Assembly (NCBI RefSeq): GCF_025143985.1
Contig: NZ_CP083564.1
Span: forward strand, 1,675,501-1,739,500
DNA length: 64,000 bases
Source: Sulfitobacter sp. W027
GTDB lineage: Bacteria > Pseudomonadota > Alphaproteobacteria > Rhodobacterales > Rhodobacteraceae
Reading direction: 5' to 3'
The notes beneath the pieces were generated by a model. That model had not been told where the DNA came from and searched no databases. It was given only the letters and a program-made list of their open reading frames with translations. Positions 59,814-63,134 of the stretch are shown here, in pieces (within the stretch, counting starts at the first letter, position 1; every line of letters starts with the position of its first letter). The position numbers and the translations under genes are program-made.

Positions 59814-60971
59814 TTAGCGGAAGCTGCGCAAGTCACTGCCAAAGAGGCGGGCGTGTTCTTGCAATGCAAAGCGGTCCGTCATGCCTGCAATGTAGTCAGA
59901 GACCATCCGCGCCAGCGTGGTTTCATCCTCTGCCGCCTCAATCGCCGCGGCCCAATGGCGCGGCAGCAGGTTGGGTTGAGATAGAAACAGCGGAAAGAGG
60001 TCTTCGACCACCTTTGTCACCTTCTCGCGATTCTCCATGACCGAGGGCGCGCGGTACATGCGGGTAAACAGGAACTTTCGAATCTCGCGCAGATCCTGCC
60101 AGACGGGATCCGAAAAGCGGATCACCGGGCGGCCTAGATGACGGATGGCATCGGGGGATTTGGCCTCCGCCTCTTTCAGCAATTTGGACGATGTTTCGAT
60201 CACGTCGCCGACCATCACCCCAAAGACCCGCCGCAGCGCCTCATGGCGACGGCGATAGCTGTCCGTGTCGGGGTAGAGCCGGTCCACTTCCGCATAGGCC
60301 GCGCCAACCATGGGCAGCTCGGCAATCTCGGCTTCGGTGAACAGACCCGCCCGCAGCCCGTCGTGCAGATCGTGGTTGTTGTAGGCAATGTCATCGGAAA
60401 GTGCGGCCACCTGCGCCTCGGCGCTGGCGTGGGTGTGTAGTTCCAGATCATGCCGTGCGTTGTAGTCTGCCAGCGCATGGGGCACCTCTCCGGTAACGGG
60501 CCCATTGTGTTTGGCAATGCCTTCCAGCGTGTCCCACGTCAGGTTCAGCCCGTTAAATTCGGCATAGTGCCGCTCCAGCGTGGTAACGATCTTGATCGCC
60601 TGCGCGTTGTGGTCAAACCCTCCGTAGGGCGCCATCAGCTTATGCAGCGCGTCCTCGCCGGTGTGGCCAAAGGGCGTGTGGCCCAGGTCATGCGCCAGCG
60701 CCACGGCCTCGGTTAGCTCGCCGTTCAGGCGCAACGCCCCTGCGATGGTGCGCGCCACTTGGGCCACTTCGATCGAATGTGTCAGACGGGTGCGGAAATA
60801 ATCGCCCTCATGTTCGACAAAGACCTGCGTCTTATGTTTAAGCCGCCGAAAGGCGGAGGCGTGAATGATCCGGTCTCGGTCCCGCTGATAGCAGGAGCGA
60901 AACGTGCTTTCCTCCTCCGGCACCAACCGTCCCCTGGCGGTGTCCGGATCCGAGGCAAATTCTGCGCGCAT
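59814..60971 (-). CDS. dgt: Deoxyguanosinetriphosphate triphosphohydrolase-like protein (dGTPase)
   Basis: 385 residues of the HD superfamily. HD motif residues: RTRLTHSIEVAQVAR (His), ALAHDLGHTPFGHTGEDAL (His-Asp), LSDDIAYNNHDLHDGLRAG (Asp). Type-1 dGTPase-like proteins of this kind release triphosphate from dNTPs and shape the pool. The N-terminal part (ERDRIIHASAFRRLKHKTQV pattern) is diagnostic. It lies near the end of the argS run; divergent from erpA. Confidence 0.94.
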   Translation of the reverse strand: MRAEFASDPDTARGRLVPEEESTFRSCYQRDRDRIIHASAFRRLKHKTQVFVEHEGDYFRTRLTHSIEVAQVARTIAGALRLNGELTEAVALAHDLGHTPFGHTGEDALHKLMAPYGGFDHNAQAIKIVTTLERHYAEFNGLNLTWDTLEGIAKHNGPVTGEVPHALADYNARHDLELHTHASAEAQVAALSDDIAYNNHDLHDGLRAGLFTEAEIAELPMVGAAYAEVDRLYPDTDSYRRRHEALRRVFGVMVGDVIETSSKLLKEAEAKSPDAIRHLGRPVIRFSDPVWQDLREIRKFLFTRMYRAPSVMENREKVTKVVEDLFPLFLSQPNLLPRHWAAAIEAAEDETTLARMVSDYIAGMTDRFALQEHARLFGSDLRSFR

Positions 60972-61407: not shown

Positions 61408-62466
61408 TTAGCTACGCGCCCGTGCGAAGCCCTCGAAAAACTGTTCGAAATGCGGGCTGGAACGTTCGGCCTCCAGCAAGATCGCATGGCTCTCTGGTCC
61501 AAGGTAAGACAGGACATGCGGGCGCATGTGCCCCCAATCCGCGCTGCGCTGTGCCCCCATGTCATTCAGGCAAGCCGCCAGCGGGCGCAGCGCCCCCTGC
61601 CCGTTGTGACATGCATGAAAGCGCAGCGCGCCATCGGGGAGGTGGCGGGCGCCCATCGGGCGGCCCGCGATATCTGCCGCCCAGCCAGTGACCAGCCATT
61701 CATGGTAATCGTCCTGCAAAGAAGCACTGATGTTCGGCTGGATGCGGTAGCCGCGGTTGCAGGCGGCAACTGCATTTTCCCACGATTGGCTGGGCTGCAC
61801 CCCGGCAAGGCGCAGCGCGGCGCAGACTTCGGCAAGCAGGTCCATGTCTTGATCAAGAAATGCCAGCAATCCGGTGAACTGCAGGCTCTTTTCCGCTTCA
61901 TTCGGCAAATCGGGGTCGCAGCGGCCATAGTCCGATAGGTAATAAACGATATGGGTCAACTCATAGGCCGCCTTGCGATTGGGCATTGCGAAGGTGGCAC
62001 TGCGTGAGACGAAATCGCGCAACCGCTGGCCAAGCGCACCATCCCCGACCTGCGGCCCCATGCCCCGACGGCGGAGCAGGCGGCGTGCTTCGGCCCGCTG
62101 CAGGTCAGACAGCTCAGCGCCTTCCAGCCCCGCGCGAGCCACTTCATCGCAAAGTGCGGCACCGTGAAGTGCTGGCAGGCCGAGGTCTTCGAGATCAAGA
62201 CAGATCGACAGGATGAAACGGTAGTACTGCGGAAAGTCACGCAGCATGTCTCGGGACCCCGCGTGGAAAGCGCGGAGCGGTTCGAGCGTTTCGCGATCTA
62301 ACCGGTTGCCCGTGCTTGCCAGAACCCCCAGCAATTCCGCGTTTTCCTTCAGCCAAAAGACATCTCCTTGGGCGCGGCGTTCGATCGCAAAGCATCGGAT
62401 CAGCCGAGCCGTCCGGGTGGTAGGATCGCATGTATCGTCAGGTCTGAGCAGAACAACATTGGTCAT
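61408..62466 (-). CDS. Unknown helical protein with AYELTH motif, paired with the FTTGL protein
   Basis: 352 residues, no named function known to me; I think it matches the Rhodobacteraceae family DUF6902 (from memory, not checked). The chain is mostly helical. The best landmark is PNRKAAYELTHIVYYLSDYG (162-181). Others are a DDYHEWLVTGW segment (252-262) and HACHNGQGALRP near 284. There is no signal peptide and no membrane helix. The gene starts 57 bp after the stop of the 87-residue FTTGL protein on the same strand. Similar ELTH motifs occur in helical enzymes, but no catalytic role can be read. Confidence 0.72.
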   Translation of the reverse strand: MTNVVLLRPDDTCDPTTRTARLIRCFAIERRAQGDVFWLKENAELLGVLASTGNRLDRETLEPLRAFHAGSRDMLRDFPQYYRFILSICLDLEDLGLPALHGAALCDEVARAGLEGAELSDLQRAEARRLLRRRGMGPQVGDGALGQRLRDFVSRSATFAMPNRKAAYELTHIVYYLSDYGRCDPDLPNEAEKSLQFTGLLAFLDQDMDLLAEVCAALRLAGVQPSQSWENAVAACNRGYRIQPNISASLQDDYHEWLVTGWAADIAGRPMGARHLPDGALRFHACHNGQGALRPLAACLNDMGAQRSADWGHMRPHVLSYLGPESHAILLEAERSSPHFEQFFEGFARARS

Positions 62467-62523
62467 AGAGACGCCTCCGATAAGGGGAGCAGCGGGCGGA
62501 AGACCCGCCCGCCAACTCAAACT

Positions 62524-62787
62524 TTAACCAGTGAAGGGCAGCACTTGCGTCTCAGCAGGCGCGAGGCCGGTGGTGAAAAGACCAACGCCGGATCCCTGCG
62601 CAATGCTGCCGCTGTTGCGTTGCAATCCGGTGGTGAACATCTCAGTACCCTCGCCCATCAGCATCTCGCTGCCATGGCGGTTAAGACCGGTGGTGAAAAG
62701 ACCAACCCCCGCGCCAAGGCTCATCAGGTTGTCCTGTGTCTCCGGCGCTGTTACGGGGGCAATGTTGCATGCAGAAATAGCAGTCAT
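62524..62787 (-). CDS. 87-residue protein with three FTTGL repeats
   Basis: MTAISACNIAP starts the chain; FTTGL motifs stand at residues 31-35, 51-55 and 71-75, exactly 20 residues apart, each preceded by G-x-[GE]-[LM]. The end reads QVLPFTG. A binding site AAAGGA lies about 7 bases before the ATG. I think it matches family DUF6749 (from memory). There is no signal peptide or membrane segment. The repeat and the adjacent helical protein suggest a substrate and partner, for instance a leader-core peptide and a modifying protein, but no modification enzyme is recognised. Alternatively it is a small scaffold. Confidence 0.75.
   Translation of the reverse strand: MTAISACNIAPVTAPETQDNLMSLGAGVGLFTTGLNRHGSEMLMGEGTEMFTTGLQRNSGSIAQGSGVGLFTTGLAPAETQVLPFTG
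62554..62706 (-). repeat. Three in-frame 60-bp repeats encoding the FTTGL units
   Basis: The motif bases CCGGTGGTGAA recur on the plus strand in all three units (FTTGL codons at 62563-62577, 62623-62637 and 62683-62697), exactly 60 bases apart. Sequence between them differs, so the repeats are ancient or under selection at the motif only. Confidence 0.85.
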
Positions 62788-63134
62788 GTCGTGTCCTTTC
62801 AGAAGGAATTGCAATTTAAAGGTGTAGTGGACTCACTGATGCATCTTAAAGGTGTTTCGCCAAGGAATTTTTCGTTAAGTTATTGTACTGTAAGAGTTAT
62901 CCACATTAATACCGCGCCGCAGTTCTGCCTCAGTGACCAGTTTTTCCTCCTGTGGTCGGGGAAAAATAAGATCCCTCCACAGGGCAGACTCATGACAAAA
63001 GCGGCCATCACCTTCACATCATTCCCGCCAAAGTAGAGGAAGGTGAGAGAGAATCTCCCTAAACGCGCAAGCCTTCCCCTTGCTCCGCAAGGCCATTTGC
63101 GCGATAGCAGTCGGACATCTTAAGGGGGCCGGAT
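62788..63134. other. AT-rich intergenic leader with direct repeats and a DnaA-box match
   Basis: About 347 bp between the divergent FTTGL gene and xth. The first part (to about 62970) is much richer in A and T than the rest of the window. It holds TTAAAGGTGT at 62816-62825 and 62846-62855, a TTATCCACA at 62897-62905, and the inverted pair CCTGTGG/CCACAGG at 62949-62955 and 62977-62983. A 14-codon ATG frame at 62992-63036 lacks a strong binding site. No RNA gene is recognised. Confidence 0.6.
62816..62855 (-). promoter_or_regulatory. Direct repeats TTAAAGGTGT, 30 bp apart
   Basis: Two copies at 62816-62825 and 62846-62855, the same side of the helix at about three turns. They lie about 30 bp before the FTTGL start and could form an operator. 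Read on the coding strand they are ACACCTTTAA. Confidence 0.35.

Follow-up and report, generated by a model that had tools for sequence, protein, structure and literature searches.

The window analyzed here, a stretch of 64,000 nucleotides (nt) from Sulfitobacter sp. W027 (NZ_CP083564.1, positions 1,675,501 to 1,739,500), carries two adjacent genes that encode an 87-residue repeat protein and, downstream of it, a 352-residue protein of the family DUF6902. This pair is probably a multicore system of the ribosomally synthesized and post-translationally modified peptide (RiPP) type, in which the DUF6902 protein modifies each of the repeated cores, most likely by epimerization. Taken part by part, a dedicated precursor with its modifying enzyme is very likely; given such a precursor and enzyme, epimerization is the rather likely chemistry; and the two parts together have about an even chance of being correct.

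An earlier note, drawn up from the letters of the window, had described the genes as a two-gene unit, and this was borne out. Both open reading frames (ORFs) are on the minus strand with 57 nt between them, the repeat protein contains three FTTGL motifs at an exact 20-residue pitch (starting at residues 31, 51, and 71), and the AYELTH and DDYHEWLVTGW landmarks are found in the 352-residue translation. The suggested likeness to a RiPP precursor and its modifying protein is supported in part: it is strengthened by the homology of DUF6902 to DUF6895, by near-invariant residues, and by codon evidence.

Linkage of the repeat gene to DUF6902

We compared 111 loci including the window's own, which represent 103 distinct precursors; 80 of the loci are the best 80 of 353 relatives. 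After a regular-expression pass (70/80), which included at least one wrong frame (L045), all loci were re-read for the repeat gene. It lies directly upstream of the DUF6902 gene and on the same strand in 111/111 loci and in 18/18 further loci, that is, 129/129. Seven entries outside this set also have a repeat gene (L128, L129, L130, L135, L170, L189, and L190, with L189 and L135 denoting one and the same locus); upstream of L191 the sequence is too short to tell. A RiPP system has a small precursor gene in strict linkage with a candidate modifying enzyme, and so does this pair, the exception being genome G039.

In 149 sampled genomes of the family Rhodobacteraceae, a profile of the repeat found the small gene in 42/45 genomes with DUF6902 and in 0/104 others (Fisher p about 6e-34, with no correction for kinship). 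The pair idea, which frequent separation of the two genes would speak against, thus survives. The three misses of the profile were a repeat gene with MMCCS cores recognized by eye (G099), a fragment lying where a contig begins (G139), and G039, which is without a repeat gene. Three genomes of the same genus without DUF6902 (G834, G877, and G897) likewise lack the repeat gene, and in these the distance between xth and dgt is 0.5–0.9 kb, as against 2.2 kb in the window. In G908 (L171), both genes of the pair have decayed together. The absence in the three genomes, with xth and dgt closer together, and the joint decay suggest that the pair is gained or lost as one. Among the 80 named loci, 74 have enough sequence to place the neighbors: a divergent xth lies no more than 3 kb upstream in 73 of the 74, and dgt is within 5 kb downstream in 69.

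In the whole order, DUF6902 was detected in 58/196 genomes (57 over the cut-off). In the class it was detected in 4/289 genomes, where the three over the cut-off all belong to one family and the fourth, G950, looks like DUF6895. A tblastn search of PLSDB plasmids for DUF6902 gave no match at E≤0.01. No description of DUF6749, DUF6902, or this gene pair was found in the open-access literature, most subscription papers being outside the search; DUF6895 turned up there in one paper, within its reference list.

Repeat units and their codons

The window repeat protein has no Pfam match at E≤1. Three relatives have no DUF6749 match at E≤10, so the label DUF6749, suggested in the earlier note, was dropped. 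NCBIfam matches of the small protein to Erm were low, far below the cut-offs, and were rejected.

The repeats were counted in the 103 distinct precursors, a few of them truncated where a contig stops. Each gene has 1 to 20 recognized repeats (median 7), spaced by 20 or 21 residues in 526/582 cases and by 8 residues in 25/582; the 20-residue spacing of the window protein is therefore typical but not universal among relatives. The repeat unit consists of G (95%), five variable residues, F (95%), and four species-dependent residues. There are 34 consensus F-x-x-x-x cores, for example, FSSGS, FTSGS, FTSWS, FTTSC, and FTTGL, after one of the 35 cores called (FGSEA, L058) was dropped as erroneous. 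In 685 repeats, position +2 of the core is S or T in 97% and position +1 is T or S in 88%; some species have V, I, C, P, M, or A at +1 and N, C, or Q at +2. Phe is thus the only near-invariant core residue. The gene ends exactly after a core in 72/103 precursors, though not in the window, and internal cores are trailed by A/G-P, with P at +6 in 82% of 612. These gene ends and the trailing A/G-P suggest cleavage at the end of the core.

In L084, L009, L075, L085, L097, L102, L105, and L154, the arrays are compact and the cores are separated by only three residues, for example, FTSGS-TAL-FTSGS and FTSGL-VQM-FTSGL, which indicates that not every core requires the full G-x5 stretch in front of it. 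Some repeat genes are located at contig ends (contigs C8 and C31 of G053, C6 and C20 of G027); draft assemblies probably break within repeat genes or truncate them.

Within a gene the cores are mostly alike. The four residues after Phe are identical in every anchored copy in 75/102 genes, and 630/672 copies bear the commonest core of their own gene. Among the remaining 27 genes, five deviate solely because the search rule made a stray match, and about 22 truly mix core types. Many of the mixed-core genes are Sulfitobacter-like, and they include L028, L036, L042, L046, L049, L051, L064, L065, L071, and L082; FSTSC followed by FSSGS within one gene is an example. Such genes perhaps give two products, or are a snapshot of the change from one core to another. 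On the DUF6902 tree, the core type changes 45 times, whereas 100 shuffles gave 76.4 changes on average and never fewer than 73, a comparison that still contains the erroneous FGSEA; this agreement could be explained by shared ancestry alone. A core that is mostly uniform per gene and differs between species would be as expected of a multicopy peptide precursor.

Codons provide a separate view of this uniformity. The three cores of the window differ in their Gly and Leu codons (GGT CTT, GGA TTG, and GGC CTC). These differing codons, together with the position of the repeat gene at the same place across loci, argue that the repeats are neither chance nor recent DNA slippage. We compared codons between unlike copies within one gene in 102 genes (671 repeats). 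An earlier core statistic was biased by the demand for a match at three of five residues, and the figures given here for positions −5 to +6 come from a rerun anchored on G and F/Y only. The nonsynonymous share of the codon differences was 0.05, 0.12, 0.14, and 0.12 at core positions +1 to +4, where each position had 965 to 1188 synonymous differences. The share was 0.22 at Phe, 0.56–0.74 at −5 to −1, 0.37 at +5, and 0.23 at +6, and the earlier calculation gave 0.76–0.89 at six linker positions (−9 to −7 and +7 to +9); the copy pairs in all these figures are non-independent. The low nonsynonymous share at the core amid many synonymous changes shows that the uniformity of the core is selected and is not just the result of recent duplication.

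The DUF6902 protein, its relatives, and its surroundings

The label DUF6902 given in the earlier note proved correct: the window protein matches PF21843 with 439.8 bits over residues 1–350 (gathering score 27 bits). It also matches DUF6895 (PF21836) with 81.6 bits over residues 26–233 (gathering score 23.8 bits). Its closest named relatives are in a Sulfitobacter metagenome-assembled genome (80% identity) and in S. dubius (78%). DUF6902 and DUF6895 have in common the motifs Y-x2-T-H, D-x3-E, and Y-H. In a chosen superfamily alignment, from which the weak matches L136–L141 and L188 were left out, H172, D209, and E213 are present in 22/22 rows and H255 in 21/21 rows that reach it. Within DUF6902, each of the four residues is kept in 120/121 proteins, and the DUF6895 rows of the alignment, which represent Actinomycetota, Bacillota, Betaproteobacteria, and other Pseudomonadota, retain them as well. 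The DUF6902 homologue of G039 (L169), the sole one examined that has no repeat gene, has lost all four.

The AlphaFold2 (AF2) model of the DUF6902 protein is nearly all-helical, with a predicted local distance difference test (pLDDT) score of 89.7. Foldseek returned no match at E≤0.001; the best fold matches, all short of that level, include class II terpene cyclases and glycosidases. An alpha/alpha toroid (terpene cyclase-like) fold is a possible reading of the model. A sequence search of the PDB gave two matches at E about 0.9, which were taken as chance.

Outside DUF6902, a set of 18 DUF6895-type loci was read. The set leaves out L132 as well as L123, L124, and L141 (under the cut-off); L188, a sub-threshold DUF6902 match, was placed in the set by motif only, and Pfam was run on proteins of L127, L133, and L134 only. 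By eye, a precursor-like ORF is present upstream in 12/18 (L125–L127, L131, L133, L134, L142, L144–L147, and L188). L143 was ambiguous by eye and was not counted as precursor-bearing, and L136–L140, which are partial matches over the cut-off, showed no precursor-like ORF in the fetched sequence. Many of the 12 share a leader in which a G-I/L pattern is followed at some distance by a Thr, and behind this leader comes an aromatic core such as GPWYAY, GPWFVL, AWDKYVLVV, or DWTFVSPNYVY. In L188 (601–2082, reverse complement), which is from the window's class, the DUF6895-type gene follows a small ORF with the leader MLKLIADAGIIDRRATLDDLIELSERL and the core NAWAFIVKGKFVFKDD. Clusters on Streptomyces and Kitasatospora plasmids (L142, 6037–9892; L144, 5574–8900; L146, 6611–9606) contain a precursor-like ORF ending, for example, in GGLLLSPPAPRPKKG, and a partner gene of 230–250 amino acids (aa) lies between this ORF and the DUF6895-type gene. 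L142 and L146 also contain a beta-lactamase-like or serine hydrolase gene, and two tandem DUF6895-type genes were recognized by motif in S. fungicidicus (L142) and S. chartreusis (L144). The three plasmid clusters are candidate RiPP clusters. L137 and L138 have the T-H, D-x3-E, H pattern and a hydrophobic N-terminal stretch, with no precursor-like ORF seen; these proteins may belong to an exported branch that acts on a different substrate. In the order of G587, from another proteobacterial class, DUF6902 is present in 3/4 genomes, and the two loci with upstream sequence carry FGCY-core repeats in the same G-x5-F setting. The precursor-like ORFs and these repeats indicate that the linkage extends past Rhodobacteraceae; universality is not claimed.

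The features of the pair in the window are listed in Table 1. Its flanks encode Exo_endo_phos, Fe-S_biosyn (Fe-S carrier), and HD proteins according to Pfam, and argS was read from the ORF list. The earlier note had seen no exporter in the window, which is true for the neighborhood of the pair there but not for many relatives: a transporter gene directly follows DUF6902 in 45/80 of them (L109 of these 80 has no downstream sequence), and its start codon overlaps the DUF6902 stop by 4 nt in 43 of the 45. The transporter is EamA-type, as the L128 copy scores 48 bits in Pfam and the copies of G031 and G082 are 46% identical to it. Loci with the transporter have more repeats (median 7.5 vs 4, p 4e-7, kinship uncorrected; 36 and 31 loci, leaving out six contig-end loci and duplicates). 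The window's branch has no EamA-type gene beside the pair, and the best match in the window's genome is 27% identical. No ATP-grasp gene was seen beside the pair. ARAGORN called a tRNA-Pro(tgg) at 60127–60214 on the plus strand, entirely within the minus-strand dgt, which is probably a false positive.

Table 1. Positions of the gene pair, its cores, and the putative active-site codons in the window.
Feature	Position	Strand	Basis
Repeat-protein gene, 87 aa, three G-x5-FTTGL repeats	62524..62787	-	ORF and translation
Core 1 FTTGL, residues 31-35	62683..62697	-	Translation, codons
Core 2 FTTGL, residues 51-55	62623..62637	-	Translation, codons
Core 3 FTTGL, residues 71-75	62563..62577	-	Translation, codons
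Shine-Dalgarno-like AAAGGA, 5' of repeat-protein ATG	62794..62799	-	Read from sequence
DUF6902 gene, 352 aa, putative core-modifying enzyme	61408..62466	-	Pfam PF21843, PF21836; AF2 model
Shine-Dalgarno-like GGAGG, 5' of DUF6902 ATG	62474..62478	-	Read from sequence
His172 codon, putative active site	61951..61953	-	Alignment
Asp209 codon, putative active site	61840..61842	-	Alignment
Glu213 codon, putative active site	61828..61830	-	Alignment
His255 codon, putative active site	61702..61704	-	Alignment

Proposed function, alternatives, and known systems

In the proposed mechanism, the upstream gene would give an unfolded precursor with three identical FTTGL cores, each preceded by a G-x5 stretch that serves for recognition. 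The DUF6902 protein would bind these stretches and modify each core, the likeliest chemistry being L-to-D epimerization of a core residue with two-base acid/base catalysis by His172, Asp209, Glu213, and His255. A host protease would then free the modified cores for export, for which many relatives may use the EamA-type transporter. From recognition through modification, epimerization, cleavage, and export to a signal-like role, these are steps that we infer. We propose epimerization because of the relation to DUF6895, for which a lasso-peptide epimerase is named in a title (Shi et al., ACS Catal 2026), and because the H-D-E-H set is analogous to the two His/Asp dyads of the epimerase MslH, although the folds differ.

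Several points weigh against this mechanism. Mixed cores in about a fifth of the genes mean that one gene need not yield one product. A read-through model of both genes, itself uninformative, left the precursor part disordered and gave no sign of docking. Modification of the core is something we infer, and other chemistry on the Ser/Thr-rich cores, or a binding scaffold, is possible.

If the enzyme instead modified the cores by another reaction, for example, at the hydroxyls of Ser/Thr, at the ring of Phe, or at the backbone, its helical fold would have been adapted to that end. We consider this unlikely, with an appreciable residual chance. A hydroxyl reaction would fit the prevalence of S/T at +2 (97% of the 685 repeats) and T/S at +1 (88%), terpene cyclases and glycosidases are among the best fold matches, and the kinship with DUF6895 is only distant (81.6 bits). 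However, +1 and +2 vary in some species, which leaves no near-invariant side chain save Phe, and the conserved two His and two acids resemble the two His/Asp pairs of MslH (PMC10406935). It seems improbable to us that the pair works without catalysis and that the repeat protein serves as a scaffold, decoy, or regulator, with several DUF6902 copies bound through its F-x-x-x-x motifs. The regular 20–21-residue pitch (526/582) would suit multivalent binding, and both the core type that tracks the enzyme tree and the mixed core types in about 22/102 genes favor it; yet binding alone does not explain the near-invariant His, Asp, and Glu in common with the distant DUF6895, nor are the three-residue spacers, the C-terminal core (72/103), and the transporter gene (45/80) accounted for. 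Very improbable, in our estimate, is that a known RiPP cluster, lasso or other, has only two of its genes here and the remainder elsewhere in the genome. The title of Shi et al. (ACS Catal 2026), by which a DUF6895 protein acts in lasso-peptide biosynthesis, speaks for it, whereas the cores are only 5 residues long and the flanks are xth and dgt in most relatives and the Fe-S carrier and argS in the window. Neither a lasso B peptidase nor a C cyclase was found beside the window precursor, the rest of the genome not having been searched for lasso genes.

We therefore retain the multicore precursor with DUF6902 as its probable epimerase, and extend it to a tentative proposal, to which we give somewhat less than an even chance. 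DUF6895 and DUF6902 may form one superfamily of toroid-shaped H-D-E-H peptide epimerases, which in Rhodobacteraceae would act on tandem-core precursors and mass-produce species-specific D-residue pentapeptides, possibly signals, exported by EamA; this would be a new bacterial RiPP class, whose operons of two or three genes sit at a housekeeping locus in nearly one third of the family genomes sampled. Were this so, about 30% of these genomes would produce very small modified peptides of a kind not yet described, and genome-mining tools would, in our judgment, probably overlook the gene pair responsible. Two Pfam families of unknown function would gain a testable role and candidate catalytic residues, and the at least 34 natural core types would be a ready-made substrate library. 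Peptides with D-residues would also matter for signaling and for the resistant organic nitrogen of the sea.

Among known systems, the lasso epimerase MslH has two His/Asp pairs that flank the alpha carbon of the precursor's last residue and uses two-base catalysis (PMC10406935). The likeness is that MslH acts on a ribosomal precursor, at its last residue, and that 72/103 DUF6902 precursors likewise end at a core. The systems differ in that MslH has a calcineurin-like fold with Ca(II), whereas the DUF6902 model is nearly all-helical. The likeness to DUF6895 consists of homology over 208 residues, common motifs, and a precursor-like ORF upstream in 12/18 loci. By eye, a single leader helix with one or two cores rich in W, Y, or F is seen in many DUF6895 precursors, whereas DUF6902 precursors usually have 3 to 20 short F-x-x-x-x cores, and there are no lasso genes beside the pair. 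Multicore RiPP precursors, such as those of the fungal Kex2 type and the graspetides, have many near-identical cores per precursor that differ between species. Fungal Kex2-processed repeat proteins are a topic of PMC7329392. Compared with such multicore RiPPs, the present pair is bacterial, and DUF6902 is the only enzyme gene seen alongside the precursor, sometimes accompanied by an EamA-type transporter.
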